DNA of 64,000 nucleotides from the NCBI GenBank assembly GCA_019112735.1, contig DXIS01000012.1, positions 1-64,000 on the forward strand. The letters run 5' to 3'. How positions within the stretch are numbered: the stretch's first letter is position 1; every line of letters starts with the position of its first letter. Source of the DNA: Candidatus Mediterraneibacter guildfordensis. Its GTDB lineage: Bacteria; Bacillota; Clostridia; Lachnospirales; Lachnospiraceae. A model generated the notes under the pieces. It was not told where the DNA came from and did no database searches. It worked only from the letters and a program-made list of their open reading frames with translations. Made by a program: the position numbers and the translations under genes. Positions 57,452 to 63,884 of the stretch are shown here, piece after piece.

Positions 57452-57736
57452 AAAAAACGCCCTTACTGCTTTCACAGTAAGGGCGAAATCTTCCGCGGTA
57501 CCACCTTATTTCACCGACGCCGGAAATCATTTTCCATGCATCAGCCTCATACAGCACTTTAACGCGTGCCAATCCGTCATTGCCTACTGATCCGCAGGGA
57601 TGTTCAGCATGAAGCTCCGAGACGTATTCATATGCGGTTCCTTCGCGCGCCTCTCATCCGCCGGCTGCTTTCTGTCCGGGTGTACCGTATATTACTTGCT
57701 CTCTTCAAGGCTTTTTCCTTTTATTAACTCTGTCTG
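57452..57736 (-). promoter_or_regulatory. Tyrosine T-box riboswitch of tyrS
   Basis: On the minus strand the leader contains the T-box core motif AAGGTGGTACCGCGG (57507-57493), which pairs with the tRNA acceptor end. It is followed by an intrinsic terminator (CGCCCTTACTG / CAGTAAGGGCG, 57458-57485, then a T run at 57457-57452). A specifier codon TAC (Tyr) lies at 57626-57624 within Stem I. Uncharged tRNA-Tyr binding favours the antiterminator and transcription of tyrS. The Stem I details were not folded. Confidence 0.93.
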
Positions 57737-57784: not shown

Positions 57785-57846
57785 TTTGGGACACCGCAAA
57801 ACGCAGTTTGGGACGTAGTAAAATTGAATTTTACTACGTCCCAAAC
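57785..57846 (+). repeat. 62-bp palindromic repeat, copy 1
   Basis: The unit consists of TTTGGGACA, a 12-bp spacer with a GCAAAA core, and a perfect 41-bp palindrome at 57806-57846 (20-nt arms around a central G; core GGGACGTAGTAAAATT). Copy 2 at 63823-63884 has the same layout in the opposite orientation. It lies 28 bp past the stop of the EIICB gene and may fold into a transcript end, but there is no T run. It resembles a REP/MITE-type element. Confidence 0.75.
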
Positions 57847-57874
57847 CATGAAAAGGGATTATATGTTTAAATTA

Positions 57875-59347
57875 TTATTTGCAGAGTTTTTTGAATTCGT
57901 CTGCTACGAACTGTACTTTTGTTCCTACGATAACCTGTAAGGAATTCTTGCCCGGGCGGATCACGCCTGCAATACCTGCAGATTTGATCTTCTTCTCGTC
58001 AACCTTTGTGTAATCCTTGATCTCAAGACGAAGTCTTGTGATGCAGTTATCGATGGATGTAACGTTCTCTTTGCCGCCAACACCTTCAAGGATGATGGAA
58101 GCAACCTCTGTGAAGTTGTCGTTTGCAAGAACAACTCTCTTCTCAGCCTCTGTATCGTCGTCATCCTCACGTCCCGGTGTCTTCAGATCGAATTTTACGA
58201 TCGCGAAGCGGAATACTACGTAGAAGATGATGAATGCAGCGATGCCCAGCGGGATGATCATCCATGTATTCGCAGCTGCCGGAAGGGAAGCAGAGAATAC
58301 AAGGTCGGTCAGACCTGCGGAGAAGCTGAATCCTGCACGGAATCCGAGAACTACTGTTACTACTGTGAAGATTGCATACAGCAGAGCGTAGATCAGGTAC
58401 AGAACCGGTGCAAGGAACATGAAACCGAACTCGAACGGCTCAGTAACACCGCAGACAAATGCTGCGATAGCTGCGGAGCTGAGGAGACCGATCGCAACTT
58501 TCTTCTTGTTGCTCTTTGCTGTGTGTACCATAGCGAGAGCCGCACCCGGGATACCGAACATCATACACGGGAAGAATCCTGACATGTACATACCAAGGCT
58601 CCATGTAACATCTGCTGATGTCTCGCCTGCCCAGAAGTGAGTCAGGTCACCGAGGCCGATGGTGTCAAACCAGAATACGTTGTTGAGTGCATGGTGCAGA
58701 CCGAACGGGATAAGCAGTCTGTTGAAGAATGCATACAGTCCGGCTCCGACTGCTCCGAGGCTTGCGATGCCTTCGCCAAGTGCAACGAGTGCACCGAAAA
58801 CGATCGGCCATACGAAGAGCAGAACTACGGATACGATGATGGATACAACACCTGCGATGATCGCTACGCAGCGCTTGCCGCTGAAGAATGACAGCCAGTC
58901 CGGAAGCTTTGTGCTCTTGAACTTGTTGTAGCACATGGATCCGATCACACCTGCAAGGATACCGATGAACGGGTTTGCAATCTTATCGAATGCAAGAGTT
59001 GCATCAGCATTCTCTGCGATAGACGGCATGATAACTGTTACGTTTGCTGTTGCCAGCAGGTTTGTCATCATCAGCCAGGAAGCCAGGGCTGCCAGACCGC
59101 CGGTACCGTCGTTCTCGTCGGACATTCCGACACCGATACCGATCGCAAACAGGATCGCCATGTTATCGATCAGGGCGCCGCCTGCTTTCACCAGATAGTA
59201 ACCAATCTGCTGAACGATTCCTGTTACATCACCGCCCTGCATCGTTGACGGACACAGTGCGTATCCGATACCCATGAGGATACCGCAGATCGGAAGAACA
59301 GCAACCGGGAGCATTAACGCTTTACCTAATTTCTGTAAAAACTTCAT
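57875..59347 (-). CDS. nagE: PTS EIICB, N-acetylglucosamine/glucose type
   Basis: The 490-aa protein has a glucose-family EIIC domain with about ten helices (GKALMLPVAVLPICGILMG, PFGLHHALNNVFWFD) and a C-terminal EIIB domain. The phospho-accepting cysteine is about Cys435 in SIDNCITRLRLE. It imports and phosphorylates the sugar at the membrane, with EIIA supplied by the gene just upstream. N-acetylglucosamine is inferred as substrate from the nearby nagA and nagB, which share the same type of RNA control site; glucose cannot be excluded. AAGGAGGGAAACTA precedes the start. Confidence 0.9.
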   Translation of the reverse strand: MKFLQKLGKALMLPVAVLPICGILMGIGYALCPSTMQGGDVTGIVQQIGYYLVKAGGALIDNMAILFAIGIGVGMSDENDGTGGLAALASWLMMTNLLATANVTVIMPSIAENADATLAFDKIANPFIGILAGVIGSMCYNKFKSTKLPDWLSFFSGKRCVAIIAGVVSIIVSVVLLFVWPIVFGALVALGEGIASLGAVGAGLYAFFNRLLIPFGLHHALNNVFWFDTIGLGDLTHFWAGETSADVTWSLGMYMSGFFPCMMFGIPGAALAMVHTAKSNKKKVAIGLLSSAAIAAFVCGVTEPFEFGFMFLAPVLYLIYALLYAIFTVVTVVLGFRAGFSFSAGLTDLVFSASLPAAANTWMIIPLGIAAFIIFYVVFRFAIVKFDLKTPGREDDDDTEAEKRVVLANDNFTEVASIILEGVGGKENVTSIDNCITRLRLEIKDYTKVDEKKIKSAGIAGVIRPGKNSLQVIVGTKVQFVADEFKKLCK

Positions 59348-59390
59348 TAGTTTCCCTCCTTAATTTTGACTCTCGTCATAATCCCTTTCT

Positions 59391-59440
59391 ATTTTAACCG
59401 GATGCTCCGGTCAAAACCATTATTAACAGTAGTCCGGTTA
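59391..59440 (-). repeat. Intercistronic hairpin between EIIA and EIICB
   Basis: TAACCGGA at the EIIA stop can pair with TCCGGTTA downstream, and an alternative ACCGGA-GCA-TCCGGT stem lies in the same interval. Two competing hairpins may affect mRNA processing or relative expression of the two PTS genes. No T run follows. Confidence 0.4.
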
Positions 59441-59911
59441 CTCAATGATAACCAGATCGTCGCCTGCAGCCACGTCTTTTGTTCCGACGTTCTCCACCGA
59501 TTTGTAATCCGGTGTGTTGCAGACAAGCACCGGTGTGATAATGTCGTAACCGGCTGCTTTTACTTTCTCGAGGTCCACTTCCAGGAGCAGATTCCCTTTC
59601 TTCACATGGTCCCCTGCCTTTACGTGGCCGGTGAAGCCCTCCCCGTTCATTTTCACGGTGTCAAGGCCTACATGGATCAGCACCTCTGCGCCGAAATCCG
59701 TAACCATGCTGACTGCGTGGAGTGTATCGAATACCATTCCGATCTCTCCGTCGGCCGGCGCATAGATCTTTCCCTCTGACGGGATCACCGCCGCGCCCTT
59801 GCCCAGCATTTCTTCAGCGAATGTAGGGTCGTTTACTTCGCTCAGCGGAACTGCTTTTCCCTTCGCCGGTGCGCCGAGCACATGACCTTTTTTCTTAAAC
59901 AGATTAAACAT
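59438..59911 (-). CDS. PTS EIIA, glucose family
   Basis: The 157-aa soluble protein has the Crr fold: GKAVPLSEVNDPTFAEEMLG, then active-site His65 (FDTLHAVSMV) and His80 (AEVLIHVGLDTVKMNG), matching the two histidines of enzyme IIA-Glc. It carries phosphate from HPr to the EIIB domain of the adjacent gene. ATG at 59911 follows AGGAGGAG; the frame runs further upstream but would overlap the antiterminator gene. Confidence 0.94.
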   Translation of the reverse strand: MFNLFKKKGHVLGAPAKGKAVPLSEVNDPTFAEEMLGKGAAVIPSEGKIYAPADGEIGMVFDTLHAVSMVTDFGAEVLIHVGLDTVKMNGEGFTGHVKAGDHVKKGNLLLEVDLEKVKAAGYDIITPVLVCNTPDYKSVENVGTKDVAAGDDLVIIE

Positions 59912-59931
59912 TGTTCTCTCCTCCTTTTCTT

Positions 59932-60774
59932 TTACTCTTCGTTTTCTGCCATGGTCACCCTTCTGATATGGATGGCCAGATACATGACTTCCTCGCTTGA
60001 AAGCCTGCACTCCGTATTTTTCTCGATATATTCCGCGATCTTGCAGCTGCACGCGTACTCCTTCGGATATTTCGTCTGCATCAGTTCCGCCAGTTCGTCC
60101 TCTTCATTTGGAAGAAGTTCGTTGCGGTACACTCTCTGCAGAAGGAATTTCAGATGCGTCACAAACCGTTCATAGTGGAGCGTCCTCTCATCGAGGACAA
60201 TGCCCAGTTCATCGCTGGTGATCTCCAGGATGTCCCTCAGCTGGTTCGGAAACCGGAATGCATCTTTAATATTTGTCCCGTATTCCGCATTCACAAAATG
60301 AAGGGCGATAAATCCCGCCTCGTCTTCCGGCAGCTCAACGCCCAGCCGTTCTTTTATGAGCTTCAGCGCGTAGCTTCCGAGGTCGAACTCGTGGGGATAG
60401 AACCGCTTGATCTCCCACAGGAGCGCATTCTGCAGATTGATCCCTTTCTCGAAACGCTCGATCGCAAAATTAATATGATCCGTAAGTGTTACATAAATGC
60501 TCTGATTCAGTTTCAGATTCAGATTGCTCTTTGCGAAAGAGATAATATCCGTTGAAATCTTCACCCGTTCAAGCGGCATATCGGCCAGCAGCTCTTTGAG
60601 CTGGTCCGCTGTATCCCTGCTTTTTATACGGAATACTTTTTCAATTTTCTTCTCGTCCACAGGCTGTCCGGGGCGCGCTCCGAACCCGAGCCCCCTGCCC
60701 ATTACCACAAGCTCTTTTCCCGTTTCGTCGAAAGCAGAAACAATATTATTATTAATTACTTTTTCTACTAACAT
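59932..60774 (-). CDS. BglG/LicT-family transcription antiterminator
   Basis: The 280-aa protein has an N-terminal RNA-binding CAT domain (MLVEKVINNNIVSAFDETGK, VVMGRGLGFGARPG) and two PTS regulation domains. The conserved histidines are seen in LTDHINFAI, ALHFVNAEYG, TLHYERFVTHL and LAIHIRRV. Proteins of this family bind RAT RNA and stop terminator formation when their PTS substrate is present. RAT sites lie before this gene and before nagB. It probably senses GlcNAc through the EIICB encoded two genes downstream. Confidence 0.94.
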   Translation of the reverse strand: MLVEKVINNNIVSAFDETGKELVVMGRGLGFGARPGQPVDEKKIEKVFRIKSRDTADQLKELLADMPLERVKISTDIISFAKSNLNLKLNQSIYVTLTDHINFAIERFEKGINLQNALLWEIKRFYPHEFDLGSYALKLIKERLGVELPEDEAGFIALHFVNAEYGTNIKDAFRFPNQLRDILEITSDELGIVLDERTLHYERFVTHLKFLLQRVYRNELLPNEEDELAELMQTKYPKEYACSCKIAEYIEKNTECRLSSEEVMYLAIHIRRVTMAENEE

Positions 60775-60792
60775 ATCTACCTTTCAGGATAT

Positions 60793-60872
60793 AAAAAAAC
60801 CAGATCATATAAATATATCCTCTGAGCCTATATTTATAAAATCTGGTTTTGCCTGCCGCACAGTAACAATCC
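60793..60872 (-). promoter_or_regulatory. RAT antiterminator site and terminator (RAT1)
   Basis: On the minus strand 60872-60845 matches the BglG-family RAT consensus: GGATTGTTACTG, a short loop, then CAGGCAAAACC. Its 3' end overlaps the 5' arm of a terminator (AAAACCAGAT ... ATCTGGTTTT, 60850-60793, followed by T residues). Binding of the antiterminator would keep the terminator from forming, so the operon for the regulator, EIIA and EIICB would be autoregulated. Confidence 0.9.
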
Positions 60873-60895
60873 TGCCGTATTTTCTTATTGTTTAC

Positions 60896-60924
60896 ACTCT
60901 AGCAGAAATTGACGGTAAAGTCAA
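60896..60924 (-). promoter_or_regulatory. Promoter of the antiterminator-PTS operon
   Basis: TTGACT (60924-60919) and TAGAGT (60901-60896) are separated by 17 bp on the minus strand, so that transcription would begin just ahead of RAT1. Confidence 0.65.
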
Positions 60925-60971
60925 TCTGTTCTTTATAATTTGTTTATATAATTTATTTTTTATTTATGCTT

Positions 60972-62093
60972 TTAAGCCTGTTTTTTACCGTTCACATACA
61001 CTGCCTTAACATTCAGGTCTTCATCAAGCAGGACAAAGTCCGCATCCTTGCCCGGCGCAATGCTTCCGCACCGGTCATAGACGCCGATCTCTTTCGCAGG
61101 ATTCATGGTCGCACAGCCGACCGCATCCTCCAGCGGAATGCCCATGCGCTGTACAGCCACGCGGATACAGCCCATCAGGTCTGTGGCAGAACCGGCGATG
61201 GTCCCATCGGCAAGGGTCGCCAGCGGCCCTTTTACAAATACATCCTGGCCGCCCAGCGTATACTGGCCGTCTGTCAGGCCTGTGGCGCGCATGCTGTCAC
61301 TGATCATGATAATGCGGTCTGCGCCGAACATGGCAAATGTGGCGCGGACCACTGACGGATGAATGTGAACGCCGTCGCAGATCAGCTCCACATGGCATTT
61401 CTCATCGTCCCTCGCCGCGCCGATCACGCCCGGCTCCCGGTGGTTGAGCGGCGGCATCGCATTGTACAGATGGGTCACATGGCTCGCGCCCTCTGCCAGC
61501 GCTCTTGAAGCTTCGTCATAATTCGCCACCGTGTGTGCGATGGAAACAACGACTTCATCCTTCACATCACGGATAAATTCGATCGCCCCGTCATTCTCCG
61601 GCGCAATGTCCACCAGTTTGATCAGCCCGCCGGACTCCTCCTGCAGCTTCCGGAAAAGCTCCGTATCACATTTCCGGATATGATCCGCCGCCTGGGCGCC
61701 TTTTTTCTTGACGCTGATGAAGGGTCCTTCCATATTGATGCCGACCAGCTTCGCGCCTTCTGTCCCGTTATAAGCCCCAGCCGTCTTCATGATGCTGTGG
61801 AGTTCTTCCTCGGACAGCGTCATGGTCGCCGGACAGATCGATGTTACGCCGACGGACGCCTCGTGCTTCGCCATATTTGCAATAGCCTCTTCCTTCGCAT
61901 CGCAGAAATCATCGCCCACGCAGCCGTGGAAATGGATATCCACAAGCCCCGGGATCATATAGCAGCCTTCGCCGTCCAGCACTTCATCCGCTGCAGCCGA
62001 AGCCGGATCCGCAAACCTGCCGTCGGCAACCGCCATCTCGCCCGGAACGAATTTCTTATCTTCTGTATAGATCTTTACATTTTTAATAAGCAT
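60972..62093 (-). CDS. nagA: N-acetylglucosamine-6-phosphate deacetylase
   Basis: The 373-aa amidohydrolase has GLVDIHFHGCVGDDFCDA, the substrate and metal-site motifs NMEGPFIS, HVTHLYNAMPPLNHREPG and CDGVHIHPSV, and the catalytic Asp in ISDSMRATG. It releases acetate from GlcNAc-6-phosphate, giving glucosamine-6-phosphate for NagB. It lies 39 bp downstream of nagB with AGGAGG before the ATG; both are probably on one transcript under RAT2. Confidence 0.96.
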   Translation of the reverse strand: MLIKNVKIYTEDKKFVPGEMAVADGRFADPASAAADEVLDGEGCYMIPGLVDIHFHGCVGDDFCDAKEEAIANMAKHEASVGVTSICPATMTLSEEELHSIMKTAGAYNGTEGAKLVGINMEGPFISVKKKGAQAADHIRKCDTELFRKLQEESGGLIKLVDIAPENDGAIEFIRDVKDEVVVSIAHTVANYDEASRALAEGASHVTHLYNAMPPLNHREPGVIGAARDDEKCHVELICDGVHIHPSVVRATFAMFGADRIIMISDSMRATGLTDGQYTLGGQDVFVKGPLATLADGTIAGSATDLMGCIRVAVQRMGIPLEDAVGCATMNPAKEIGVYDRCGSIAPGKDADFVLLDEDLNVKAVYVNGKKQA

Positions 62094-62132
62094 TTTCCCA
62101 TACCTCCTGTACAGGCCGCACCTGCGGTCTTC

Positions 62133-62870
62133 TTATGCCTGCTCCGGCACTTTGGAAAGAGCCGCCTTGTCCGCTACGATCACAACATCCGGGTGAAGCT
62201 GGAGAATGGAGGCCGGAACTTCCGGTGTAACCGGTCCGAAGAATGCTTTCGCCACGATGTCTGCTTTTGCCTCGCCGTTCACGATCAGGAGGATCTTCTT
62301 TGCTTTCATGATCGTTCCGATCCCCATCGTATATGCCTGACGCGGAACATCGTCTGCCGATGCGAAGAATCTCTTGTTCGCCTCGATGGTGCTCTCTGTC
62401 AGATCCACGCAGTGTGTGGTCTGTGCAAACGAGCTGTCCGGCTCATTGAATCCGATATGTCCGTTATGTCCCAGACCCAGGAGCTGGATATCCACGCCGC
62501 CCATGGAATCGATCAGCGCCTCGTATCTTGCACACTCTTTGTCCGCATCCGGCTCGGTTCCGTCCGGTACGTTCGTGTTCGCCGGATCGATATTTACACG
62601 GTCAAACAGATGCTCATGCATGAAATAATAGTAGCTCTGGTCATTGTCCCGTGTCAGTCCCCTGTACTCGTCCAGGTTCACGGTCTTGACTTCTGAGAAA
62701 TCCAGGTCGCCGCTGTCACAGCGCGCTACCAGCTCATCATATGTACCGATCGGTGTGGAGCCTGTCGCAAGACCGAGCACACAATCCGGTTTCAGGATAA
62801 CCTGAGCCGCCAGGATATTGGCTGCTTTTCTGCTCATTTCCTCATAATTTTCCGCTTCATAGATTCTCAT
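62133..62870 (-). CDS. nagB: Glucosamine-6-phosphate deaminase
   Basis: The 245-aa enzyme has LGLATGSTPIGTYDELV, NLDEYRGL and the active-site LGLGHNGHIGFNEPDSSF, with a C-terminus typical of NagB. It converts glucosamine-6-phosphate to fructose-6-phosphate and ammonia. The start has GAGGAGGAAG upstream. Its leader carries RAT2, placing it under the antiterminator encoded 1.4 kb away. Confidence 0.96.
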   Translation of the reverse strand: MRIYEAENYEEMSRKAANILAAQVILKPDCVLGLATGSTPIGTYDELVARCDSGDLDFSEVKTVNLDEYRGLTRDNDQSYYYFMHEHLFDRVNIDPANTNVPDGTEPDADKECARYEALIDSMGGVDIQLLGLGHNGHIGFNEPDSSFAQTTHCVDLTESTIEANKRFFASADDVPRQAYTMGIGTIMKAKKILLIVNGEAKADIVAKAFFGPVTPEVPASILQLHPDVVIVADKAALSKVPEQA

Positions 62871-62918
62871 TTCATCTTCCTCCTCTTATCTGCGGCCGGA
62901 TGCAGCTGGCCAAAGGGC

Positions 62919-62996
62919 AAAAAAAACAGATTTCCAGGCATGATAATCCACTTCATCACCCGAAAATCTGGTTTTGCCTTCTGGAAGTAACAATCC
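62919..62996 (-). promoter_or_regulatory. RAT antiterminator site and terminator (RAT2)
   Basis: On the minus strand 62996-62970 reads GGATTGTTACTTC-CA-GAAGGCAAAACC, matching RAT1 in its outer parts while the apical stem is CTTC/GAAG instead of CTG/CAG. It overlaps a terminator (CAGATTTTC ... GGAAATCTG, followed by eight T residues at 62926-62919). It lies in the nagB leader about 100 nt before the start. Confidence 0.88.
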
Positions 62997-63014
62997 AGCC
63001 TTCTGCTACCTTTT

Positions 63015-63043
63015 ATAGTAGCAACCGGAGCTGTTTTTGTCAA
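63015..63043 (-). promoter_or_regulatory. nagBA promoter
   Basis: TTGACA (63043-63038) and TACTAT (63020-63015) have a 17-bp spacer on the minus strand, just before RAT2. The good match suggests strong constitutive initiation, with control left to antitermination. Confidence 0.75.
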
Positions 63044-63066
63044 GGTTGCGCGGCATTTTCCGGCAA

Positions 63067-63810
63067 CTATTTCCCGCTGTATTCTATGCTTTTAAGGACC
63101 AGTCCCTGAGGCAGCGCTGTCGCCCCGGTCTTTCCTCCGCTTTTCCCGTCGATCAGCTCCTTTACACTTTCCGGAGAACGGAATCCGCGCCCCGTCTCAA
63201 CCAGTGTGCCGGTGATGATCCTGACCATGTTGTAGAGGAACCCGTTCCCGCTGATCCGGAGCGTGATCAGGTCGCCCGCCCGCTCCACGTCCAGGCTGAA
63301 AACCGTGCGCACGGTCGTCTTTGCCCCGGTGTGGATATTGCAGAAATTGCGGAAATCATGTTCCCCCACAAAATAAGCCGCCGCCAGACGCATCTTCTCC
63401 ACATCGAGGGGAAATGACACATGCCAGGCGTCCCGTCTGCGAAGGGGATCCGGCATCTCCCGGTTCAGGATGCGGTACTCGTATGTCTTCACCGAAGCCT
63501 GATGCCGCGGATGCCAGTCCGGCGGCACTTCCTCCGACTTCACCACCACAATATCCTCCGGCAGCAATGGATTCACCGCATAGGCAAACCGCTCCGGCGG
63601 GATCGTGGACGCCGTGTCAAACACCGCCACATTCCCCTCCGCATGCACGCCCGCATCCGTCCGGCTGGCGCCGGTCACCGCAATATCTTCCCTCGTCAGC
63701 CGGGAAAGCGCTCTGTTCAGTACCTCTTCAATCGTGATCCCGTTGGGCTGGACCTGCCAGCCGCAGTAATCCGTACCGTCGTAAGCGACGGTCAGCATAA
63801 TCCTTCTCAT
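63067..63810 (-). CDS. truA: tRNA pseudouridine(38-40) synthase
   Basis: The 247-aa protein has MLTVAYDGTDYCGWQVQPNG, the catalytic-Asp motif GASRTDAGVHA, FHVSF-like WHVSFPLDVEKM and the C-terminal GNGFLYNMVRIITGTLV. It makes pseudouridine at positions 38-40 of tRNA anticodon stems. ATG at 63810 has AAGGAG 6 nt upstream. The palindromic repeat copy 2 begins 12 bp before the start, so it lies next to or within the truA leader. Confidence 0.95.
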   Translation of the reverse strand: MRRIMLTVAYDGTDYCGWQVQPNGITIEEVLNRALSRLTREDIAVTGASRTDAGVHAEGNVAVFDTASTIPPERFAYAVNPLLPEDIVVVKSEEVPPDWHPRHQASVKTYEYRILNREMPDPLRRRDAWHVSFPLDVEKMRLAAAYFVGEHDFRNFCNIHTGAKTTVRTVFSLDVERAGDLITLRISGNGFLYNMVRIITGTLVETGRGFRSPESVKELIDGKSGGKTGATALPQGLVLKSIEYSGK

Positions 63811-63822
63811 AAAATCTCCTTG

Positions 63823-63884
63823 ATTGGGGACGTAGTAAAATTGAATTTTACTACGTCCCCAATTAACTTTTGCCCTGTCCCAAA
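63823..63884 (-). repeat. 62-bp palindromic repeat, copy 2 (inverted)
   Basis: Read on the minus strand it has TTTGGGACA, a 12-bp spacer containing GCAAAA, and a perfect 41-bp palindrome (63823-63863) with 20-nt arms. Compared with copy 1, two arm positions differ and both are matched by complementary changes in the other arm. It begins 12 bp upstream of truA. Confidence 0.75.

Follow-up and report, generated by a model that had tools for sequence, protein, structure and literature searches.

The window analysed here is a stretch of 64,000 nucleotides from Candidatus Mediterraneibacter guildfordensis (contig DXIS01000012.1, positions 1 to 64,000), and this work concerns a pair of hairpin elements within it, copy 1 and copy 2, together with the Y1 transposase gene that accompanies them elsewhere in the genome. 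Copy 1 consists of TTTGGGACA, a 12-bp spacer and a perfect 41-bp palindrome at 57806-57846. Copy 2 has the same layout in opposite orientation, with its palindrome at 63823-63863 and its arm side on the minus strand, and the preliminary description of both elements proved exact (Table 1). Both 41-bp palindromes are built around the 33-bp core GGGACGTAGTAAAATTGAATTTTACTACGTCCC, extended by four paired bases per side, which read GTTT/AAAC in copy 1 and ATTG/CAAT in copy 2. The two arm differences between the copies are both compensated, as had been noted before, and compensatory change was also observed at the orthologous sites of other genomes. When folded as single-stranded DNA (ssDNA), all four strands of the two copies are predicted to form the hairpin, with -20.3 to -22.3 kcal/mol and z-scores of -7.6 to -9.6, which none of 200 shuffled sequences equalled.

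Copy 1 is located between the stop codon of the phosphotransferase system (PTS) gene and the T-box leader of tyrS, while copy 2 follows the stop codon of a gene of the CbiQ family, which we take to be ecfT, and ends before the start of truA. Rough gene calls combined with Pfam returned the intervening genes as they had been named earlier. Their enclosure by the two copies, including that of the N-acetylglucosamine genes, is a matter of position only. The T-box leader itself occupies 57476-57717 on the minus strand (Rfam RF00230, 94.1 bits); it is preceded by a promoter-like TTGACA-17-TAATCT, read by eye, with 13 bp between its first box and the outer end of copy 1.

Table 1. Hairpin elements and enclosed genes, with positions in the 64,000-nucleotide window
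Feature	Position	Strand	Remarks
Copy 1, putative solo terminal-repeat element (22-bp unit, 33-bp palindromic core, short complementary outer arm)	57785..57846	+	
Copy 1, 22-bp unit (GGGACA...)	57788..57809	+	boundaries by eye; register of the tandem units within the transposase terminal repeats
Copy 1, 33-bp palindromic core	57810..57842	.	one of 20 genome copies
Copy 2, putative solo terminal-repeat element	63823..63884	-	opposite orientation; ecfT/truA interval
Copy 2, 33-bp palindromic core	63827..63859	.	
Copy 2, 22-bp unit	63860..63881	-	boundaries by eye
PTS EIIC/EIIB gene	57875-59347		rough gene calls and Pfam
PRD/CAT antiterminator gene	59932-60774		rough gene calls and Pfam
Amidohydrolase gene (nagA)	60972-62093		rough gene calls and Pfam
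Glucosamine-6-phosphate isomerase family gene (nagB)	62133-62870		rough gene calls and Pfam
truA	63067-63810		rough gene calls and Pfam

A dispersed hairpin family

In the genome (G000), which spans 2.40 Mb on 40 contigs at a completeness of 89.91, the 33-bp core was found 20 times, a lower bound because the assembly breaks at repeats. Nineteen copies are exact and all 20 are recovered with up to three mismatches, while the backward control returned none in either search. A looser pattern matched 21 places (10 in its backward control), from which the unrelated C1:3843 was discarded to leave the same number. A scan of the genus with up to three mismatches detected the core in 39 of the 58 genomes, and those that have it carry between 1 and 28 copies. 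When each genus of the family was represented by one genome (299 in all), the exact core occurred in three, our own genome among them. The two others hold exact single cores (L043 and L044, in G163 and G262); G163 has a Y1 homologue of 47% identity, and G262 has no Y1 match at E 1e-10. At least 80 stretches with exact core matches were listed, by title mostly Mediterraneibacter, and the other titles among those listed are Lachnoclostridium, Ruminococcus, Dorea, Hespellia, Tyzzerella and Lachnospiraceae.

On the arm side, within 60 bases of the core, 14 of the 20 copies have at least one GGGACA unit and six have at least two, with a period of 22 wherever two occur. The sequence of these 22-bp units is mostly TGGGACAG or AGGGACAG, and that of the core is GGGGACGT in some copies, which comes near to GGGGWSAS but is not uniform. 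A different arm (GGTTCACA.TTTTTTCACA or near) is present on one side of four copies of this genome (L026, L033, L035, L036), and at one such site M. quadrami has a longer perfect palindrome (L120). A third arm type belongs to C11:26465 and C21:10373, which are paired over 22 and 23 bp, respectively, the former with mismatches. The first four bases outside the core are paired in 62 of the 80 cases, against 40.4 expected when arms are permuted among copies, and none of 20,000 permutations was as high. The preliminary description had held that its reading would fall if only two copies existed in the genome with no relatives elsewhere, or if other copies had arms differing without complementary change. 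The first situation does not apply to a family of 20, and the second does so in part, since the first three outer bases are fully paired in 14 copies and not in the remaining six.

The resident Y1 transposase

The sole PF01797 match detected in the genome lies outside the window, at C24:7751-8518 (255 codons from the likely start), and its score is above the cut-off. The gene is bordered by inverted cores in the outermost position, with two 22-bp units inside each, so that the proposed search for a Y1 transposase flanked by the same hairpin found its object here. Among NCBIfam models only NF047646 (REP-associated tyrosine transposase) responded, with 71.7 bits under a cut-off of 80; five of five member proteins match this profile at E up to 0.01. 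The motifs THFH (59-62) and YIHMNP (119-124) are invariant across five homologues, so that both signatures of the class 2 Y1 group, HuH and Y---NP, are present. The best PDB relative is 4er8 (TnpA-REP), with an E of only 0.016 by profile and 0.17 by single sequence.

A homologue of at least 56% identity was found in 32 of the 58 genus genomes (partial in G302), and all 32 contain cores. Together with the single gene and its hairpin flanks, this supports the kinship with Y1 (RAYT-like) transposases that had been suspected from the window. The core is also present in seven of the 26 genomes without a close homologue, and the six genomes with only a distant Y1 match (34-42%) have none. Homologue loci were fetched from 30 of the 32 genomes, one each, and cores stand on both sides of the gene in 29 of them and on one side in the other. 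All 30 have the gene flanked by an M18 aminopeptidase gene (Peptidase_M18) on one side and by glyS on the other, the latter label being our reading of class II synthetase domains. Among the seven genomes with cores and no detected gene, it is missing at this locus in G327, G331 and G334, the assembly of G332 is broken there, and for G354, G339 and G330 the locus was not returned by a search that scored just 15 candidate places per genome. Beside Y1 relatives of other Lachnospiraceae genera (33-51% identity), a GGACG hairpin or inverted repeat was seen by eye at 18 of 29 loci and none at 11, so the association exceeds the genus and is not universal. At eight loci of other genera, both neighbours recur in two (L244, L248), one in five and none in one.

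Over the 30 loci of the genus, transposase protein distances correlate with aminopeptidase distances at r 0.70, a value that 2,000 permutations never attained, and with glyS distances at r 0.45 (permutation fraction 0.001). The dN/dS values of 0.07, 0.15 and 0.17 against G304, G325 and G306, respectively, show that the transposase gene is under purifying selection. From gene-less genomes 16 loci were obtained, with both neighbours in 11 and one flank only in five. In two of the former, G331 and G334 (L337 and L336), the aminopeptidase-glyS interval retains one slightly decayed core, while the gene and the 22-bp units are gone, a state that would be expected from recombination or slippage between two palindromic ends. 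In the other nine two-neighbour loci, a core-like hairpin was not found.

Occupied and empty sites

Both sites of the window vary among relatives. For the right site, that of copy 2 in the ecfT/truA interval, 30 loci were aligned out of 58 genomes matched; 18 of them carry the hairpin and 12 are empty. At the site of copy 1 (the left site), 24 loci include 15 with a core or decayed core and seven in which the motif is absent; of the remaining two, G304 has a contig break and G337 a GC-rich hairpin without the motif. In the PTS/tyrS interval of G320, G305 and G309 (L195, L196, L204), unrelated hairpins were seen by eye at the place of copy 1. The best occupied/empty comparison concerns C11:26465, where 59 bp with the core and arms are missing in G325 and present in G000, G304, G351 and G312. 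No target-site duplication is evident there, this being the single site compared and probably a loss. In L308 (G332:C56), about 1.07 kb of other DNA replaces the hairpin of the same site. Between the PTS and antiterminator genes of the window itself, a 584-bp gap (59348-59931) in which the rough caller placed no gene might hold an antiterminator target.

Compensatory change in the arms

Compensatory change is confirmed at orthologous sites. At the right site, 98.1% of cells pair over 15 distinct sequences (of 18, three repeats being omitted), and both-sided changes occur in four of 18 pairs, a number reached by one of 500 shuffles. The covariation score was reached by none of 500 shuffles, and sliding the partner abolishes the signal. 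Some of the double changes may go back to a single inherited event. For the left site, tabulated as 12 rows (10 distinct; G307, G348 and G345 omitted for core lengths of 32 or 34 bp), double changes affect seven pairs, as in only two of 5,000 shuffles, and two of the double-changed pairs fall within the GGGACGTAG motif in G301 and G342.

By comparing close relatives (30 comparisons at 16 sites), we counted 15 cells in which a change on one side creates or repairs a mismatch, and five with double changes. The five represent three distinct changes at two sites, and mismatched intermediates exist. The scarce changes in the core (three single) were not used as evidence, because most loci had been found by exact core match. 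The centre base was flipped between G and C in six of 35 comparisons, at five of 17 orthologous sites, which is about fifteen times the C-G exchange rate of the flanks (1.2% at C/G sites). Since most of the loci came from exact matches, this count presupposes a C or G centre, and it was set against flanking C/G sites. The P value of 3e-6 assumes independent comparisons, and the comparisons are not fully independent. The flips suggest that strand switching inverted the middle of the palindrome, or that it was converted in reverse from another copy.

Origin and maintenance of the hairpins

We hypothesize, with considerable confidence, that copies 1 and 2 are non-autonomous solo ends of a TIRYT/RAYT-like Y1 family, mobilised in trans, and that they delimit no unit. 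The reading draws on what the data show: the anatomy, the copy number, the one transposase gene, its co-occurrence with cores, the conservation of its locus, the purifying selection on it, the inheritance of single hairpins between species at orthologous sites, presence/absence differences between species and arm covariation. The Y1 protein would recognise the folded core as ssDNA and would, rarely, copy or move it into intergenic DNA near gene ends. After insertion, each hairpin copy would be passed on vertically, and its arm complementarity would be kept by a mixture of hairpin selection and palindrome-templated mutation, whose shares are not apportioned. Copies 1 and 2 would then be independent old insertions, and not the ends of one mobile unit.

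Several observations weigh against this explanation. No C-terminal helix-turn-helix (HTH) family was recognised by Pfam in four C-terminal parts, and the GTAG of the present hairpins lies within the paired stem, the unpaired GT[AG]G 5' foot of canonical REP sequences being absent. Cores occur in seven genomes in which the gene is undetected. Nor is the gene single-copy throughout, as two close homologues each are present in G329 and G349. The further pair types of the right site are ordinary (62 of 500 shuffles). No target-site rule was found and no transposition event was observed. Empty sites in sister genomes, which the preliminary description had recommended seeking, do exist, but because the more distant G351 and G312 are occupied at C11:26465, that difference is explained more simply by loss in G325 than by fresh insertion.

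The window first suggested a composite mobile unit in which the pair carries the antiterminator, PTS, nagA, nagB and truA genes. The inverted orientation and the 6-kb spacing would suit such a unit, and copy pairs within 6.1 kb of each other number four against 0.97 expected (P 0.017), although one of the four is the transposase's own pair and P is 0.074 for three. Against this, G301 and G342 have the five genes and ecfT in the order of the window with the left hairpin only, the right one is missing also in G307, and the two copies of a further close pair, on C17, point the same way. In G305, G320 and G309, which have neither hairpin, the order of PTS, antiterminator, nagB, truA and ecfT is kept, and a search of the block (L363, L364, L365) gave no nagA hit. 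That absence could be taken in favour of the unit, but in the five genomes checked nagA tracks the left hairpin and not the right, which means that the pair is not a mobile unit. With independent occupancy of the two sites, the composite transposon is rejected, and we give it hardly any probability. A second possibility is that copies are retained as terminators or insulators at gene ends, which would explain their conservation. The copies stand close to gene ends, none of the 20 between divergent genes (seven convergent, 13 tandem), and the chance of this, 0.04-0.05, is weak and comes from a rough caller that missed the transposase gene and left four of the 20 copies overlapping an open reading frame. 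The A- and T-rich outer arms of C11:26465 and C21:10373 and the unrelated hairpins at the place of copy 1 in G305, G320 and G309 (by eye) point in the same direction. However, at least six T in eight at the stem end, the T tract of an intrinsic terminator, was seen in just one of 20 copies, and copy 2 sits inside the ecfT-truA pair directly before the ribosome-binding site of truA, a place at which termination would be expected to do harm. Thus, the transcript-end role raised earlier is unlikely in general, though possible at copy 1 and the two long-armed copies, and retention for this function seems to us rather improbable overall.

The strongest competitor concerns the arms. The compensatory changes may be the product not of selection on a folded strand but of template switching (quasipalindrome correction) at replication, by which one arm is copied onto the other and the centre can be inverted, and we rate this only a little below an even chance. 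Compensatory pairs have been traced to template switching in the literature: it creates and maintains hairpins, according to the available text of PMC8794818, and it homogenises arms and inverts spacers, according to that of PMC8604942. The centre flips far above the flank exchange rate agree with it, as do two adjacent pairs changed together at site c14. On the other hand, single-sided cells exceed double ones (15 versus 5) in close relatives, and reverse ectopic conversion from another copy could equally flip the centre. The left-site hairpin also persists in G348 (decayed core) and G337 (GC-rich, motif-less), where the transposase and other cores were undetected; this fits structural selection, and a hairpin outliving its motif or gene suggests selection there. 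It follows that the compensatory change described earlier stands, and the selection on a folded strand deduced from it is not forced, because template switching would also yield it. A broader proposal, which we regard as doubtful though worth stating, is that a TIRYT-type Y1 gene has long been fixed in the chromosome between an aminopeptidase gene and glyS in several Lachnospiraceae genera, and that its hairpins evolve as self-correcting palindromes in which strand switching rewrites the arms and inverts the centres. Covariation in such repeats would then reflect a mutational process in DNA rather than RNA structure, and host selection would keep some hairpins after transposase loss. Compensatory change in repeats should be treated with caution, as it is not proof of RNA.

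Over 58 genomes of this Gram-positive gut genus, a resident Y1 transposase and its locus can be traced together with the hairpins, the orthologous sites at which they stand and the cases of loss. This makes two open questions testable: whether such transposases still move hairpins, and whether covariation in DNA palindromes is due to selection or to palindrome-templated mutation.

Comparison with known systems

The present family shares its catalytic domain family, PF01797, with IS200/IS605 elements, but it has one gene at one locus with diverged homologues instead of many near-identical copies. With RAYT/REP/REPIN systems it has in common a Y1 gene at a conserved place and hairpins dispersed in intergenic DNA. 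RAYTs elsewhere are described, in the available parts of the respective papers, as single-copy and vertically inherited (PMC8049555) and as sitting close to housekeeping genes (PMC8266576). The 1-28 copies per positive genome found here differ from the usual number above 100, as given in the portion available of PMC2817692. Within open-licence PMC articles and under narrow search terms, no paper among the results listed linked such repeats to Lachnospiraceae or Mediterraneibacter, which is no claim of absence from print; in the main text of RepRanger 2025 (PMC12306157), as far as available, 'Lachnospir' and 'Clostridi' do not occur.

The nearest described group is TIRYT/TIRtron (Di Nocera et al. 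2013, PMC3733652), mostly TnpAY1 subclass 2.1 (Quentin et al. 2018, PMC6006769). In the available text of the former, it is described with a Y1 gene and long inverted repeats with GGGGWSAS, and in that of the latter, the authors of the subclass report no REP-like sequences beside the genes. The available main texts of both papers yielded no Firmicutes, and Clostridia appear only in passing in PMC6006769, whereas the host here belongs to Lachnospiraceae. Here, moreover, the end is made of a 33-bp palindromic core with tandem 22-bp units, the motifs come near to GGGGWSAS but are not uniform, GGGGACGT deviates from it in its last two letters, and an HTH domain was undetected by Pfam. The likeness, as far as these texts describe the group, covers a Y1 gene between long inverted repeats, GGGGACA-like motifs of which some are self-complementary, moderately abundant dispersed repeats, and the FQ and YIHMNP sequences, which resemble the FQ and Y[IV]HLNP of subclass 2.1. 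On this comparison, the hairpin family of Candidatus M. guildfordensis is probably best grouped with the TIRYT/TIRtron kind.

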